A model generated the notes under the pieces. It ran no database searches. It saw nothing but the letters and a program-made list of their open reading frames with translations, and had not been told where the DNA came from. Made by a program: the position numbers and the translations under genes. This document shows positions 156-12,828 of a stretch of DNA of 13,326 nucleotides, one piece after another. Numbering within the stretch: position 1 is the stretch's first letter; the number at the start of each line of letters is the position of its first letter. Source of the DNA: J061 sp003695725 [NCBI: Candidatus Schekmanbacteria bacterium] (GTDB taxonomy: Bacteria > Schekmanbacteria > GWA2-38-11); assembly GCA_003695725.1 (NCBI GenBank), contig RFHX01000142.1:1-13326 (forward strand), in the 5' to 3' direction.

Positions 156-2567
156 ATGAATAGAAGAGTGAAAAGGGTCGTACTTATCGTTGCAATACTT
201 GCAGTGTTGTCAGTGTTTCATGCTGATGCCTCTGACTTATCCCTTGTTGGAACTTTCGGAGGTGCCTTTAATGATATTAAAGTGCAAGGGAACTATGCCT
301 ATGTGGCAATGGAACACGGAATTCAAATTTTTGATGTTTCAATATCTTCCTCACCGCAACTTGTGGCTTTTTATAAAACATCTAATGCAGTCATAGGTAT
401 TATCGTAGCCGGTGGAACTGCATATACTCAAGTTGATGATAGAGGCCTTTTGATATTAGATGTTTCTGACCCTGCACAACCTTCTCTTCTTTCATCATAT
501 GATACAGATTCTTCATTGAACTTTGCTGTTTCCAACTTTGATGGTTTTTTTGTTTCAGATGACAAAGTTTATATACATAGACACGCACACGGAATGCTAA
601 TATTTGATGTCAGTAGCCCATCATCTCCTGTGCTTCTTGGAGAATTCGAATCAAGTTTAGCAGGATACAATAGTAACTATTTTGTAAGCGGAACCACAGC
701 ATATATTGCAGGTTATAATAAACTTGTTATCATCGATATTTCAGACCCTTCATCACCAAGTCTTTTAGGTAGCTATGGTGATAAAGTTGTAGATGTATTT
801 GTTTCCAGTACAACAGCATACATTGTCGACAGTGAAGGATTTAAAATACTTGATGTCTCTGACCCATCATCGCCGGTTGTGATTGGTGAAACAAGCGGAA
901 ATTATACTGGTATTCTTATTTCTGGTACAACAGCTTTCGTTAGCGGCACCAGCGGTCTTACACTGATAGATGTTAGCATACTGTCTTCGCCTTCAATAAT
1001 CAGCACTTATGGTGGTTCCTTTAGGGGAATGGATTCCTCTGCAAATAAACTTTATGTAATTTCATCTTCATCTCCCGGTTTTGAAATTATAGATATTTCA
1101 GATACATCAAATCTTACAATGCTCGGTTCATCCGAAAATATCGGTACAGTTAAAGACATCGTAATTTCAGGAACGATTGCCTATCTCGCTAACGGTGGAT
1201 TGGGTATATTTGATGTTTCTGACCAATCGTCTCCTGCATTTCTCGGGCAATATTATACAGGTGGCGACACTCAGGAAGTATTTATTGAAGGCAACACAGC
1301 ATTTATCGCTGATTTCGATAAAGGGCTTGTAATCATAGATGTAACCAATCCCATATCTCCAACACTTCTTTCAAGCTATGCAATTGAAGAGGCAACGAGA
1401 GTAACTGTTTCAGGCAATCTTGCCTATGTTGGTAAAAGCGGAGGAAAAATCAAAATAATAGATGTGAGCAAACCTGCATCACCGAAACTGCTCGGCAAGA
1501 CGCGTAAATTTAGCAGGCCTTCTAAGATTTTTGTCTCCGGTAAAACATTATTTGTTAGTCAGCGCTATTTATATACTATAGATATCGAAAAACCTAAATC
1601 TCCATCTTTGATAAAAAAGTTGGGATATTTGGGAGGGGATGAAAATTATTTGGACAGTATATTTATTGCGGGTAAGACTGCCTATTTTGGTTCAGAAGGT
1701 TCCTTTTTAATTTACGACATAAGCAATCCTGAGTCACCAGAGCGTTTTCCAAATATTCTTTCAAATCCGGGTTCTGATGAGGAAACGGTTGGAATAATAT
1801 ATGTATCGGGCAATAAAGCTTATGCGGCTGTTTTTGGATGGTTCGATACTCATACCGGTATTGCAGTAATTGATGTTTCTAATCGTTCAAACCCTAAATT
1901 GCTTGATATATATGATGATAAAGATGCTGCATTTTCTTCTTCGATTTTTGCTTCTAATAATTTCGTTTACCTTGCAAGTGGGAAAAATGGTCTTACAATA
2001 TTAGAGGATTCATCTGTTGCAAGTGATATTGTTCCTCCCGTAGTGTCATCTATAAATAAAAAACATGCAGGATACGGTGATAAGATTACTATAAAAGGCG
2101 ATGGCTTTGGTGAGAGTCCGGGCAATGTCTACTTTGGTAGTTACCATTATAAAGGGGTGATTATCTCCTGGAAAAATAATCAAATCAAAGTTACTGTCCC
2201 GTGGGGGCTCCGAAGCGGTAGGAAAGGATATAAAACAGCCGTATATGTAGAAGATGCAAAGGGGATATGGGCTGAAACATGGAAGAAATTCAAATTTAAG
2301 AAACCTACAAAAAAACCAAAAATTAAAGACATATCGTCTCAACGAATAAAAACAGGTGATGAAATAACTATTACAGCCGGACATGTTGGCCCTGCAAAAT
2401 ATGGAGTCATTACAAAAGGAGCAGATGGTTTCATTACTTCATGGGATGGTAAATCAGTAACAATAAAAATAACATCTGTTACAGCGAATAAAGTAAAAAT
2501 CCGTGTTACCACAAAATACAGCAAGAGCAACTGGAAGAAAATATCAGGAATAAAAGATTCCAAGTGA
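156..2567 (+). CDS. Secreted LVIVD-repeat beta-propeller protein with TIG-like C-terminus
   Basis: 803 aa. The N-terminus is a Sec signal peptide: RRVKR, a hydrophobic run at about residues 8-21, and a probable cut after ADA near residue 25. From about residue 28 to 620 there are roughly 14 units of the LVIVD type, each with an AY(I/V) strand, then a G-L-x-I-(I/L/F)-D-(V/I)-S strand, then P-x-x-P-x-L-L-x-x-Y, spaced 40-55 residues apart. Such repeats fold as beta-propellers, and 14 units suit two seven-bladed rings. The last unit lacks its final strand, and a spare strand (LSLVGTFGG) precedes the first, as expected for N/C 'velcro' closure. PP at 627 begins an IPT/TIG-like immunoglobulin fold to about 715, followed by a second, weaker one to 803. 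The C-terminal 170 residues are very Lys-rich. The start is supported by a TGAGGA-type ribosome site at 144-149. Role unknown; likely an exported or surface protein for binding or adhesion. No catalytic motif was seen. Confidence 0.85.
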   Translation: MNRRVKRVVLIVAILAVLSVFHADASDLSLVGTFGGAFNDIKVQGNYAYVAMEHGIQIFDVSISSSPQLVAFYKTSNAVIGIIVAGGTAYTQVDDRGLLILDVSDPAQPSLLSSYDTDSSLNFAVSNFDGFFVSDDKVYIHRHAHGMLIFDVSSPSSPVLLGEFESSLAGYNSNYFVSGTTAYIAGYNKLVIIDISDPSSPSLLGSYGDKVVDVFVSSTTAYIVDSEGFKILDVSDPSSPVVIGETSGNYTGILISGTTAFVSGTSGLTLIDVSILSSPSIISTYGGSFRGMDSSANKLYVISSSSPGFEIIDISDTSNLTMLGSSENIGTVKDIVISGTIAYLANGGLGIFDVSDQSSPAFLGQYYTGGDTQEVFIEGNTAFIADFDKGLVIIDVTNPISPTLLSSYAIEEATRVTVSGNLAYVGKSGGKIKIIDVSKPASPKLLGKTRKFSRPSKIFVSGKTLFVSQRYLYTIDIEKPKSPSLIKKLGYLGGDENYLDSIFIAGKTAYFGSEGSFLIYDISNPESPERFPNILSNPGSDEETVGIIYVSGNKAYAAVFGWFDTHTGIAVIDVSNRSNPKLLDIYDDKDAAFSSSIFASNNFVYLASGKNGLTILEDSSVASDIVPPVVSSINKKHAGYGDKITIKGDGFGESPGNVYFGSYHYKGVIISWKNNQIKVTVPWGLRSGRKGYKTAVYVEDAKGIWAETWKKFKFKKPTKKPKIKDISSQRIKTGDEITITAGHVGPAKYGVITKGADGFITSWDGKSVTIKITSVTANKVKIRVTTKYSKSNWKKISGIKDSK

Positions 2568-8953: not shown

Positions 8954-9691
8954 TTATGCCAATGCTTTGAAGAACTTGACAAAGTTCTCTTCGCCATAGA
9001 CATTACGAATTACTTTTCCCATTCTGTCAGTATCTCTCATTCCTGCCATTTGCGCTCGTATTCTTGATTCCTGTTGATTTTTCAGCTCTTCTCCGCCGAT
9101 TTCTGCTTCTTTGAAAATTTTTACCCAAAGTTTGATATATTCAGAAGCTAATCCTTGGACTGTTGAGGAATTATCGATAGTTGTTTCGGCAATCATAAAA
9201 ACCGGAGATGTATGTGTGCGCACCCATGTAGTCCATTCATAAAAGGGAATCACATTCAACCCCTTATTCTTTGCATAGTCCTGAAGGATTGGAGTGAATG
9301 GGTCAAGATATTTCATTGTAAACTCATAATCGGTGACCAAATCAAAGCCGAATGAAAAATCCGTATCAAAATAGTAAGTGCCGTCTTTTGCGATAACGGT
9401 ATTGATTCCCCATGATGGGACTTTTCGTGAAAAATCAGGACGGATTATAAACAATTCCGCATCAGTAACGATTTGATTGTTGCGGTGCGCAACAGGTATT
9501 CCATCTCCAAATTTAAAATGCACTTGTGCCACAGTGCTGATTCCTTCAGCCGTATATTTTTTTATGCTTCCTCCATCTTTTCCATCAGGAAGCTTTAATG
9601 TTTCGATATCTTCAAGCCCTTCCACTTTTCTTAACTCGATTTCTTTAGAAAGTACTTCGAAACAATATTCCGGCAATGAGTTTATGCCCAT
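8954..9691 (-). CDS. Putative bilin-reductase/RCC-reductase-like protein
   Basis: 245 aa, preceded by AAAGGAG (9699-9705) at seven-base spacing. No close family is recognised with certainty. The layout, length and motifs resemble ferredoxin-dependent bilin reductases (PcyA/PebA type) and red chlorophyll catabolite reductase. IIRPDFSRKVPSWGINTV (82-99) parallels the F-P-R-P-E-Y-x-L-P-x-F-G-x-D-L-V strand pair. EWTTWVRTHTSPVFMI (152-167) parallels the W-x-x-x-F-S-x-x-x-x-F-x-R strand. The C-terminal helix ending QMAGMRDTDRMGKVIRNVYG then EENFVKFFKAL matches the Q-x-x-Y-x-x-x-x-x-D-x-x-R-x-x-x-x-x-x-F-G-x-x-W-x-x-x-F ending. Asn97 sits where PcyA has its catalytic Asp105. No signal peptide or membrane span. 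No haem oxygenase or phytochrome gene is nearby to explain a bilin substrate. That it is a real gene is near certain; the family call is inference. Confidence 0.5.
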   Translation of the reverse strand: MGINSLPEYCFEVLSKEIELRKVEGLEDIETLKLPDGKDGGSIKKYTAEGISTVAQVHFKFGDGIPVAHRNNQIVTDAELFIIRPDFSRKVPSWGINTVIAKDGTYYFDTDFSFGFDLVTDYEFTMKYLDPFTPILQDYAKNKGLNVIPFYEWTTWVRTHTSPVFMIAETTIDNSSTVQGLASEYIKLWVKIFKEAEIGGEELKNQQESRIRAQMAGMRDTDRMGKVIRNVYGEENFVKFFKALA

Positions 9692-10035
9692 TTTTAGTCT
9701 CCTTTGAATGAGTTATAAAATTTCTATAAAGATTGAATTAGTTGATTAATCGTTTGAAGATTAATTACTACATAATTGGATATATGTCCAAGACAAGGTT
9801 TTAGAAAAGAATCCTCATCGAGTAAAATAGTTGAAAGAAAGCCAAACCTGAGCGGAAGCTTCTATGAGTAATTTGTTATTCGGGTAAAGGGCAGTACTGT
9901 TTTTAAAGTTGTAAAGAAACCCTCCCATTTTAATTTACGGGCAATAGAAGCTTCTCTACCAAACACATCTTTTTATGTAATCATTCCTTTATTACATTAT
10001 CTAATCGACTCATCGCACCACAGTGTGAGACAACA
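9692..10035. other. 344-bp gap between genes, no coding potential seen
   Basis: Apart from the ribosome site of the downstream minus-strand gene (9699-9705), nothing coding is visible. A minus-strand TATAGA (9728-9723) and TATAAC (9717-9712) are possible -10 boxes for that gene, without good -35 boxes. The gap also holds an 11-base inverted repeat pair at 9855 and 9944. No clear terminator for the large lipoprotein gene could be identified. Confidence 0.5.
9855..9954. repeat. Inverted repeat pair with HindIII-like palindromic core
   Basis: GAAGCTTCTAT at 9855-9865 is the exact reverse complement of ATAGAAGCTTC at 9944-9954. Both contain the 8-base palindrome GAAGCTTC (10 bases, AGAAGCTTCT, at 9946-9955). 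The arms enclose 78 bases with a small CAGTACTG palindrome. The pair could form a long-range stem, be two copies of a dimeric-regulator site, or mark the ends of a tiny mobile-element remnant. Confidence 0.4.
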
Positions 10036-12828
10036 CTATTTCACTGTTACTTTCTTAGATGCCTTTATGTTGTTCTCCTCGTTCGATTCTGCAACAACAT
10101 TCTTACTGTCGCATTGAACCTTTATATAATACTTGCCGGGGTCCTCATTAACTTTCCATCTATATTTGACAACACGACTTTGTTTCTTCTTTAAGCCCTT
10201 TACCCGTGTGACCCCAACGACTATATCTCCATCAGTTATACTGCTGTCATTATTTGATGAGAGATAGAATTTGGCAGTCGATGAAGATGCCTTTTTCTTA
10301 CCAATATTTTTAATCACAGCTTTTATGGTAGCTTTCTTCTTTTTAATCTTCCTTGGGCATTTAATTTTTTTAACTATAAGGTCAGGTGATTTTTTTAAAA
10401 GTGGAGCAGCGGATACTGTTACAGTAAAAGTCTTGTCTTCAATAGTTATAGTGCCCGTGATGGTATTTGCACTCGTATTGGGCGCAACTGTATATGTGAT
10501 GACACCATTCCCTGAACCGCTCGTAGCCGATGTTATGGTTATCCACGAATCATTGCTCGCAGCTGTCCAATCACATCCTTCTGAAGTCGTGACTGTCAAA
10601 TTACCCGTACCGCCTGTTGAATCAAAAGAAGCGCCGTCATCTGAAAGTCCGTATGTGCAAGTTCCAATCATTGCAACAAAGACATCTGTTCCTCCTGCGA
10701 AGCTTTCCTGAATGGATGAGGTCGTGGGGAAGTCAGAAGACCAAGTATAACCTGTTGCAAAAGCATTACCTTCGCCGTCCACTGCAATGCCATAACCACC
10801 ATATTCATCATCACTTCCACCGAGGTATGTGGAATAAACGAGTGCTGTGCCTGATGCATTTATCTTTGTAACAAAGGCATCAGCTTCGAAATGAGTTCCT
10901 CCTGCCAAGCTTTGCTGAATGGGTGAAGCCGTAGGAAAGTCAGAAGAAGAAGTATTACCTGTCACATAAGCATTACCTTCGCTGTCCACTGCAATACCAT
11001 AACCTCGATCCCAACCATTTCCACCGAGATATGTGGAATAAACGAGTGCAGTGCCTGATGCATTTATCTTTGTAACAAAGGCATCAATTCCTCCTGCCGA
11101 ATCTTCCTGAATGGGTGAAGCCGTAGGAAAGTCAGAAGAAAAAGTATAACCTGTCACATAGGCATTACCTTCGCTGTCCACTGCAATACCACGACCGTAA
11201 TCCCTATGAATAGCACCACCGAGGTATGTGGAATAAACGAGTGCAGTACCAGATGCATTTATCTTTGTAACAAAGGCATCTTCTCCTTCTCCTCCCAAGC
11301 TTTTCTGAATAGGTGAAGCCGTAGGAAAATCAGAAGACCAAGTATTACCTGTTACATAAGCATTATCTTTGCTGTCCACTGCAATGCCATAACCTTTATC
11401 CTCCTCATTTCCACCGAGATATGTGGAATAAACAATGTCAGTGCCTGAGGCATTTATCTTTGTAACAAAGGCATCTTCTCCTCCTGCCCAGTTTTTCTGA
11501 ATAGGTGAAGCCGTGGGAAAGTTAGAAGACAAAGTATAACCTGTCACATAGGCATTACCTTCGCTGTCCACTGCAATGCCATAACCGTTATCTTCACTTC
11601 CACCACCGAGATATGTAGAATAAACGAGTGCAGTGCCTGATGCATTTATTTTTGTAACAAAGGCATCACTCTGTCCTCCCCAGTTTTTCTGAATAGGTGA
11701 AGCCGTAGGAAAGTCATAAGACCAAGTATAACCTGTCACATAGGCATTACCTTCACTGTCCACTGCAATGCCATAACCGTGATCCTCATCATTTCCACCG
11801 AGATATGTGGAATAAACAAGGGCAGTGCCTGATGCATTTATCTTTGTAACAAAGGCATCATAATCATCAGTTCCTGCTGCCAAGCTTCCCTGAATTGGTG
11901 AAGCCGTAGGAAAGTCAAAAGAATAAGTTTCACCTGTCACATAGACATTACCTTCACTGTCCACTGCAATGCCATAACCATAATCCCCATCACTTCCACC
12001 AAGGTATGTGGAATAGGAAAGCTGAGGATCGATAATGATCGGATAGTCTTTGTTGTAGGATGCTATACGAAAACCATAAATGATAGGATCGCCATGATCC
12101 ATTGGGGAACTCTCAACGACATCCTTTTCTATGACAAACTCACATCTTACATCAATTCTCTTCCCCCCGATCTCCTGATAGGCAACAGGCTTCGTAAACT
12201 TTATGTCCCCATACTCAGTTGATAACTCAAGCTCTCCTGTATCGATTACCTTAACTCCTTTTGCACCTTCAAATGACATCTTTATATCAGATACCTTCCC
12301 CGACGGTTTCACTGTAAACAACTTTTCTACATTGTTGCCGTATGCCTTAAGTTTAAGCTCAACTCCGTCATAGACTTCACCAAGATTGATCTCATTATAT
12401 GTCGATAAGTTTGTCTGCCATTTATCCTTGTCTCGCCCTCTAAAGTAATTGACCTTTGTAAGCGCTTTATCCTCACCAACAGGCTTGGAAGATTTGGCAT
12501 GAATGAGTTTTTCCTTTAGATAAACTGACTTTACATTCCCCTCATATTTCCCTTCTCTCTTAATCAAACCATATCCGATTTCTCCATCATTGGTGATATA
12601 TACAGTTCCTGCAAAGGTGTTGGCATAATACATCACCTCTTTAGGCAACTGCCCGCGGTTCTCTATGAATGGAATCTGAAGTGTTGCCGTCTTCGCAATT
12701 ATTGCTCTCTTATCAAGCTGTGTATCCTTGGCAACTAAAGGTTGGCTTCTGTATATCGAACAAGCAGAAAAAACAAAAAGAGATAATAAAACCACTACGG
12801 CACAACATAAACGAATTGATTTTGACAT
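10036..12828 (-). CDS. Surface lipoprotein: DUF7948-like domain, seven SBBP repeats, BACON and CARDB domains
   Basis: 930 aa, with GGAGGA (12835-12840) six bases before the ATG. A basic start, a hydrophobic run and FSAC at 20-23 form a near-standard lipobox, with Cys23 as the lipidation site. The N-domain (about 50-270) opens with FIENRGQLPKEVMYYA, typical of the DUF7948 domain that precedes SBBP propellers, and ends at IIDPQLSYS. Residues 272-720 contain exactly seven SBBP repeats of 57-68 residues, each YSTYLGG...GYGIAVDSEGNAYVTG...FPTASPIQ...DAFVTKIN, forming one seven-bladed beta-propeller. About 722-806 is BACON-like (ASFDSTGGTGNLTVTTS; CDWTAASNDSWITI). About 810-930 is a CARDB domain (PDLIVKKIKCP; ESNEENNIKASKKVTV) with a heavy Lys content. 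Probably a cell-envelope protein for binding or adhesion. No active-site motif was seen. Confidence 0.88.
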   Translation of the reverse strand: MSKSIRLCCAVVVLLSLFVFSACSIYRSQPLVAKDTQLDKRAIIAKTATLQIPFIENRGQLPKEVMYYANTFAGTVYITNDGEIGYGLIKREGKYEGNVKSVYLKEKLIHAKSSKPVGEDKALTKVNYFRGRDKDKWQTNLSTYNEINLGEVYDGVELKLKAYGNNVEKLFTVKPSGKVSDIKMSFEGAKGVKVIDTGELELSTEYGDIKFTKPVAYQEIGGKRIDVRCEFVIEKDVVESSPMDHGDPIIYGFRIASYNKDYPIIIDPQLSYSTYLGGSDGDYGYGIAVDSEGNVYVTGETYSFDFPTASPIQGSLAAGTDDYDAFVTKINASGTALVYSTYLGGNDEDHGYGIAVDSEGNAYVTGYTWSYDFPTASPIQKNWGGQSDAFVTKINASGTALVYSTYLGGGSEDNGYGIAVDSEGNAYVTGYTLSSNFPTASPIQKNWAGGEDAFVTKINASGTDIVYSTYLGGNEEDKGYGIAVDSKDNAYVTGNTWSSDFPTASPIQKSLGGEGEDAFVTKINASGTALVYSTYLGGAIHRDYGRGIAVDSEGNAYVTGYTFSSDFPTASPIQEDSAGGIDAFVTKINASGTALVYSTYLGGNGWDRGYGIAVDSEGNAYVTGNTSSSDFPTASPIQQSLAGGTHFEADAFVTKINASGTALVYSTYLGGSDDEYGGYGIAVDGEGNAFATGYTWSSDFPTTSSIQESFAGGTDVFVAMIGTCTYGLSDDGASFDSTGGTGNLTVTTSEGCDWTAASNDSWITITSATSGSGNGVITYTVAPNTSANTITGTITIEDKTFTVTVSAAPLLKKSPDLIVKKIKCPRKIKKKKATIKAVIKNIGKKKASSSTAKFYLSSNNDSSITDGDIVVGVTRVKGLKKKQSRVVKYRWKVNEDPGKYYIKVQCDSKNVVAESNEENNIKASKKVTVK
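10666..12015 (-). repeat. Seven tandem ~192-204-bp DNA repeats encoding the SBBP propeller
   Basis: On the minus strand the YSTYLGG codons start at 12015, 11814, 11622, 11430, 11235, 11040 and 10836, giving repeat lengths of 201, 192, 192, 195, 195 and 204 bases, plus a shortened seventh of about 171. Segments encoding DAFVTKINASGTALVYSTYLGG and GIAVDSEGNAYVTG are almost identical at the DNA level among repeats 2-6, while the linker after YSTYLGG and the region after SPIQ vary. This indicates recent duplication or ongoing homogenisation. Confidence 0.9.

Follow-up and report, generated by a model that had tools for sequence, protein, structure and literature searches.

The window considered here, a stretch of 13,326 nucleotides from a Candidatus Schekmanbacteria genome (G000 below), carries a gene that was originally predicted to encode a relative of the ferredoxin-dependent bilin reductases (FDBRs) or of red chlorophyll catabolite reductase (RCCR), with Asn at the position of the catalytic Asp, in a setting with no sign of phototrophy and no neighbouring haem oxygenase (HO). 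FDBRs use no cofactor; they take single electrons from ferredoxin, and acidic residues protonate the radical intermediates. The locus raises the question whether such an enzyme is really encoded here and, if so, what it might be reducing.

Gene, family and fold

The window gene is real and conserved. Its 245-aa open reading frame runs intact from an ATG at 9691 to 8954 on the minus strand (8954..9691, stop codon included), behind a ribosome-binding-like AAAGGAG (9699..9705, minus strand) and at a start position that its orthologues share; on the plus strand of the same stretch the frame read contains several stops, and in register that strand is not open. The FDBR motifs named in the original prediction are present in the protein (RPDFSRKVPSWGINTV; Q...DTDR...YGEENF), and scanning named genomes revealed orthologues of full or almost full length in three others, Thermodesulfobacteriota SKW55 (L007), Deltaproteobacteria GLR311 (L008) and Deltaproteobacteria Zod_Metabat.1117 (L009), the identities being 54, 51 and 49%, with L009 at 49%. 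The surroundings are ordinary: elongation factor P is a separate gene that follows on the same strand (8840-8283), methylmalonyl-CoA mutase and others are nearby, and there is no redox gene among the neighbours identified, no HO among those scanned and no adjoining paralogue. Elsewhere in the window, 156-2567(+) and 10036-12828(-) encode large exported repeat proteins, LVIVD-like or SBBP-like by eye, that are unrelated to the FDBR-like gene.

Direct similarity of the window protein to the FDBRs of Pfam family PF05996 (Fe_bilin_red, curated cut-off 31 bits) is very low. Up to E 1 it has no match to PF05996 and nothing meaningful elsewhere in Pfam (SecD_1st, 0.12); it does not match RCC_reductase (PF06405), and a search of the PDB gave chance matches alone (best E 0.23), including Fab and neurotoxin chains. 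A four-sequence profile of the window clade gave a single chance match in the PDB (E 0.83) and, against three PcyA-type sequences (L028, L029 and L030, so labelled from PF05996 scores of 262-272 bits and an intact Glu/His/Asp set), a probability of 3.4 over 22 C-terminal columns only. The connection is made through intermediates. With PF05996, L009 scores 42.7 bits, above the cut-off, and L007 29.4 bits, below it; hhalign joins the window clade to 11 paralogues from its own genome with a probability of 99.7 (E 1.9e-25, 230 columns); and the profile of these 11 paralogues, built without any known FDBR, retrieves among solved structures GtPEBB (4.6e-29), tomato HY2 (1.7e-25), PcyA (1.8e-16), PebA (5e-15), RCCR (5e-10) and PebS (3e-9). 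In a small database, iterating a profile seeded with the window protein brought in the three PcyA-type sequences (5.5e-20 to 6.7e-26). The profile search proposed with the original prediction was negative when the window clade was set directly against PcyA and positive through the paralogue profile, and by this chain of sequence comparisons membership of the FDBR/RCCR superfamily is supported.

The structure model of L009 (pLDDT 74.0, pTM 0.78; the best of five, the others at 36-41) matches the FDBR fold, with a Foldseek E of 2e-7 to HY2. In VIA its best partners are GtPebB (Z 20.6, 222 residues, rmsd 2.9), PcyA (Z 20.6, 218 residues, rmsd 2.8) and HY2 (Z 20.2, 224 residues, rmsd 2.8), with RCCR at Z 18.4-18.7 (best 228 residues, rmsd 3.2) and oxygen-dependent coproporphyrinogen oxidase next, at Z 10.8-16.2. 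The window protein's own model, made from the same four sequences, is poor (pLDDT 43.7); Foldseek with it returned FDBRs and RCCR in the first 19 rows (RCCR, PebB, PcyA, HY2 and PebA), none passing E 0.001 and with rmsd of about 14-15. An alpha/beta/alpha FDBR fold is supported, on the predicted structure of the orthologue. Orthologues, paralogue profile and fold model together bear out the original assignment: the window protein is distantly related to the bile-pigment reductases of plants and algae.

The same comparisons bear on the idea that this is an RCCR-like enzyme, degrading chlorophyll breakdown products scavenged from the environment. RCCR is matched both by the paralogue profile and by the L009 model, and one paralogue gives a weak match to PF06405 (E 0.0013, under the cut-off), but the profile scores of GtPEBB and HY2 are far above that of RCCR; with the residue evidence given below, we consider this idea very unlikely.

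Residues of the catalytic site

Asn97 (codon 9401..9403, minus strand) lies in the column of PcyA Asp105 in two alignments and is Asn in all ten orthologues examined (the window protein included), which places it where the original prediction had put it. Also invariant across the ten, among others, are P85, P92, G95, D111, D222, R223 and G233, together with Glu79 and His69. Asp222 (9026..9028, minus strand) aligns with the Asp that serves many FDBRs as their second catalytic one (PcyA Asp220, GtPEBB Asp219), and Asp111 (9359..9361, minus strand) with the Asp of PcyA 'IADLSP'. Across the wider family, for which residues and gene neighbours were counted in 89 of the 138 matches described below, the Asp111 position is Asp in 85 members and the Asp220 column is Asp in 76, while the Asp105 column holds Asp in 26, Glu in 25, Asn in 23, Tyr, Arg and Phe in 4 each, Ala in 2 and Gln in 1. 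Presumably RCCR carries Glu in this column, and the 25 members with Glu would suit an RCCR-like enzyme; the window clade, however, has Asn.

In one alignment the counterparts of PcyA Glu76, His88 and Asp105 are Val, Leu (Ile in orthologues) and Asn. The alignment near the His88 column is ambiguous, since the family-wide alignment sets the clade-specific His69 under PcyA His88 and two others have Leu or Ile there; His69 belongs to an insertion of about 11 residues (G62-N72; 9476..9508, minus strand) that is specific to the window clade and itself ambiguous in its alignment to PcyA. The place of GtPEBB Arg-215, four residues before the second Asp, is taken by Met218. Judged by alignment, the window protein no longer has the first acid-base group that is usual in FDBRs (PcyA Glu76/His88/Asp105) and has kept the second Asp. 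With the central Asp and the PcyA Glu and His missing, catalysis is not assured, and the protein might instead be a catalytically dead binder that carries or senses a tetrapyrrole or a lipid, perhaps as the partner of an active paralogue. Tandem gene pairs in a related clade, with a Glu-type protein beside an Arg-, Gln- or Tyr-type one as if one partner were inactive, are in keeping with such a role. Against it stand the invariance of Asp222 and Asp111 in all ten orthologues, the lack of a paralogue adjoining the window gene, and the redox company that some orthologues keep (see below); we think a dead binder quite unlikely.

Asn at the central place has a precedent. According to PMC6755814, vascular-plant HY2 is alone among FDBRs in having its central Asp replaced by Asn, the missing role being filled by Asp-116; in the alignment with tomato HY2 the Asn is seen at that position and the HY2 Asp at the His88 column. 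The position claimed for Asn97 stands, and its singularity does not. The window clade resembles HY2 in this Asn and in fold (Z 20, orthologue model), but unlike HY2 it shows Leu or Ile rather than an acid at the His88 column in two alignments; the invariant Glu79 adjoins that column, and the register is ambiguous because of the insertion. With the FDBRs in general (PcyA, PebA, PebB, PebS and HY2) the window protein shares fold, length, the P-x-[FW]-G core, Asp at the PcyA Asp220 place and a helical C-terminal end; it differs from those of PF05996 in having Asn for the central Asp, no PcyA Glu76, the 11-residue insertion and no HO partner.

The HY2 case lends itself to a simpler reading, in which the window protein is an ordinary bilin reductase that acts on biliverdin or a related bilin, either taken up from outside or made by a haem-opening enzyme that escaped detection, with Asp222 and either Glu79 or His69 replacing the lost Asp much as Asp-116 does in HY2. 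The closest solved folds and profiles are those of true bilin reductases, Asn in vascular HY2 is compatible with activity, Glu79 and His69 are invariant in the ten orthologues, and the pre-PcyA proteins of non-phototrophs, as characterised in PMC10151467, reduce biliverdin. A bilin could come from anaerobic ring opening of the ChuW type, from an HO that is distant or non-canonical, or from an external supply. We nevertheless hold this reading to be unlikely, on the strength of the genome-wide evidence that follows.

Copy number, haem oxygenase and oxygen

The genome that the window comes from has PF05996 matches at 13 further places, 12 of them above the cut-off, paralogues of which the original prediction had no sight. 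A match of 18.4 bits on contig C307, below the cut-off, was dropped because it overlaps a 174-aa open reading frame, which we take to be of OmpH/Skp type from its looks, and was not returned by the family profile. A search with that profile, made from 30 sequences, gave 138 matches in 13 genomes, a few of them partial and one with a stop codon, at 3-18 per genome: 13 in G000 (the window gene included), 9 in G001, 3 in G002, 4 in G003, 8 in G386, 6 in G387, 18 in G388, 17 in G458, 11 in G491, 9 in G520, 10 in G572, 17 in G596 and 13 in G661. Among 386 genomes comprising G000 and its relatives, eight have a PF05996 match, namely G000, three more from its order, three with a single copy at PcyA-like scores and one with a weak single copy; among 297 from the phylum of G388 there are nine, eight of which have at least six scored copies and one of which is below the cut-off. 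In these genome samples the expansion is limited to small groups. Two scans of viral contigs gave pattern matches and no relatives. In Methanosarcina acetivorans, a control genome, a PF05996 match under the cut-off appeared at a loose threshold and was gone in stricter searches.

Two trees were built, one of 62 rows and one of 91. Both omit one fragment; the larger also omits one long-branch outlier, and the fusion proteins described below were entered into it without their first 85 residues. In these trees the window gene groups with its orthologues in a clade that has full support and sits inside a set of further Asn-type paralogues; the deep branches are long and not secure. Tandem pairs of family genes, with Glu in one product and Arg, Gln or Tyr in the other at the Asp105 column, occur in L090, L065, L112, L194, L195 and L201. 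A small protein lies beside the pairs in L112, L194 and L201, a similar-looking one in L197 having a weak SCP2 match, and an open reading frame with a ferredoxin motif is found near those in L090, L065, L194 and L201. Three FDBR-family proteins have what looks by eye like an N-terminal membrane or export segment (L092:1456-2283(-), L105:9772-10593(+) and L191:646-1452(+)); a flavodoxin-domain protein adjoins the first of these genes and a relative of it the second.

Haem oxygenase (PF01126) is found over the cut-off in none of the 13 genomes, the window's own included, and the same holds for phycobilisome-type globin (PF00502); a sub-threshold HO match in G491 (45 model positions) and four sub-threshold phycobilisome matches were taken as noise. 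What the original prediction had seen next to the gene extends in this way to the genome. Haem-copper oxidase (PF00115) is present in G000-G003 and was not detected in the other nine, some of whose assemblies are fragmented; its presence in the window genome means that O2-dependent chemistry is possible there. Since no HO was detected in the 13 genomes, the substrate is probably not HO-made biliverdin, and the number of paralogues, which is hard to square with one substrate, together with their variety at the Asp105 column, argues against a single biliverdin task and so against an ordinary bilin reductase.

The view that FDBRs belong mostly to phototrophs and their phages, on which the original prediction drew, needs amending, as active FDBRs outside phototrophs have already been published as pre-PcyA proteins, in the account of which the pre-1 and pre-3 gene clusters hold globins, V4R proteins, an Fe-S protein and typically HO (PMC10151467). 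The window family is like these in consisting of FDBR relatives in heterotrophs with altered catalytic residues, and unlike them, as that account presents them, in having neither HO nor phycobilisome-type globin over the cut-off in 13 of 13 genomes and many paralogues in each. With RCCR (PF06405) and the 'Ca. Schekmanbacteria' group of PMC10151467 it has superfamily, fold and non-phototrophic hosts in common. The Schekmanbacteria sequences are reported there to fall between FDBRs and RCCRs and are set in the RCCR outgroup, a placement that would favour an RCCR-like enzyme, with no function given in that passage. Matched by description, the window family and that group are probably the same broad family, and two new uncharacterised clades mentioned in PMC13193486 may overlap it. 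The group has, in other words, already been glimpsed in print in PMC10151467, as an uncharacterised one, and Asn at the central place is known from HY2. The passages of PMC10151467 on the Schekmanbacteria/RCCR outgroup mention neither copy-number expansion nor ferredoxin fusions, and no description of multi-copy expansion or of ferredoxin-FDBR fusions was found in the open-licence PMC literature, by titles and abstract starts among the matches listed.

Ferredoxins, neighbouring genes and candidate substrates

Seven of the 89 family members, from six genomes, consist of an N-terminal ferredoxin with two [4Fe-4S] clusters fused to the FDBR domain (L089:4750-5730(+), L108:5725-6711(-), L183:9846-10841(+), L184:2694-3674(-), L185:9048-10031(+), L186:8131-9117(-) and L187:9500-10462(+)); Pfam confirmed both domains in the three fusions run. 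A second, Asn-type family member adjoins the fusions in L089, L108, L183 and L184, and in the tree none of the fusions falls inside the window clade. The window's own genome has a free two-cluster ferredoxin of 90 aa (L021:4620-4892(+)), 18 bp upstream of a family member that is sister to the fusion clade, and L200, inside that clade, is unfused with a free ferredoxin alongside, so that fused and split forms coexist. Counting fusions and open reading frames with a ferredoxin motif within 1.5 kb, 33 of the 89 members have such a partner, vs 12 of 159 control genes from the same loci (Fisher 2e-8; this count includes tandem copies, which lack independence, and collapsing them into units gives 21 of 72); the remaining 56 have none nearby. 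In L196 and L197, two FDBR-family genes alternate with two small ferredoxin-motif genes. The fusions, we would argue, indicate that the family keeps its dependence on ferredoxin.

In L007 and L101 the orthologue is preceded by genes for NuoF- and NuoG-like proteins, small ferredoxins and a geranylgeranyl-reductase-like (GGR-like) FAD flavoprotein, along with two Tat-type exported proteins that have no Pfam match over the cut-off; Pfam backs the NuoF part in L007 and the FAD-binding domain in L101, the GGR, NuoG and Tat labels being readings of the sequences by eye. NuoF-, NuoG- and flavoprotein-like genes, again by eye, are beside the L188 orthologue on the opposite strand, and in L008 a glycyl-radical enzyme is encoded 46 bp upstream. 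A position among genes of NADH/ferredoxin oxidoreductase type (L007, L101) or behind a glycyl-radical enzyme (L008) points to a redox task, which speaks against a dead binder. Aldehyde:ferredoxin oxidoreductase genes adjoin family members in L022 and L185 (by Pfam) and in L097 and L098 (by BLAST cluster). GGR-like flavoproteins are encoded within 5 kb of 11 of 69 family members vs 1.65 expected in six genomes (G003, which has none, being left out), in a test that ignores contig ends in G001 and G002 and counts array copies as independent; with arrays collapsed the figure is 10 of 49 units vs 1.16 expected (5-kb rows summed).

Several clades have as neighbours an MMPL transporter, DUF1302 and DUF1329 proteins, an SCP2-like protein (a weak match, below the cut-off) and GGR-like flavoproteins. 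The Pfam assignments of the transporter set come from L192, a locus that lacks any FDBR-family gene; genes related to that set are found clustered next to members of the family. Six tandem GGR-like FAD flavoprotein genes form an array in L192:6846-15231(+), beside MMPL, DUF1302 and DUF1329 genes, and another in L193:283-9123(+), beside what look by eye like NuoE/NuoF-like genes. The survey of homologues' neighbours for tetrapyrrole genes, suggested with the original prediction, turned up redox genes and ferredoxins beside some family members, with no HO over the cut-off in the 13 genomes; at two loci it found divergent relatives of coproporphyrinogen III oxidase (PF01218; L006:526-1281(-) and L111:12577-13326(-), about 5 kb or less from family members), whose fold is common to the FDBRs.

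The explanation that in our judgement probably accounts best for the whole is an enzyme of FDBR fold that carries out a cofactor-free, ferredoxin-driven reduction of a conjugated substrate other than HO-derived biliverdin. Having no cofactor of its own, the protein would bind a flat, conjugated substrate in the space between sheet and C-terminal helices and take single electrons from a reduced [4Fe-4S] ferredoxin; the substrate radical expected of such a mechanism would be protonated, with Asp222 as the best candidate donor, and Asn97 would assist in substrate binding, a role described for the Asn of vascular HY2. As to the class of substrate, HO-made biliverdin is a poorer guess than a hydrophobic tetrapyrrole of O2-independent origin or a lipophilic compound, terpenoid or other, that the enzyme would process jointly with the GGR-like flavoproteins. 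The MMPL, DUF1302, DUF1329, SCP2-like and GGR-like neighbours hint at lipophilic substrates, and this is the weakest part of the argument. The original prediction's picture of a divergent branch acting on some further tetrapyrrole or other substrate stands, and has gained a family around it.

On a more tentative level, it is conceivable that the family as a whole represents a large and functionally diversified branch of the bilin-reductase fold, in bacteria without HO, some of them apparently strict anaerobes, in which ferredoxin, sometimes fused to the enzyme, serves to reduce non-bilin hydrophobic compounds in concert with GGR-like flavoproteins and aldehyde:ferredoxin oxidoreductases. The natural ferredoxin-FDBR fusions could serve as single-chain systems for the study of FDBR chemistry. 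In the account of PMC10151467, haem oxygenase precedes FDBRs in their pathway and pheophorbide a oxygenase precedes RCCR; FDBRs are proposed there to have arisen after oxygenic photosynthesis began, since all known relatives depend ultimately on O2. The nine multi-copy genomes in which neither HO nor haem-copper oxidase was detected provide a natural and direct test of that proposal, and if the branch is what we suggest, the chemistry of the fold would, contrary to it, be independent of O2-derived substrates.
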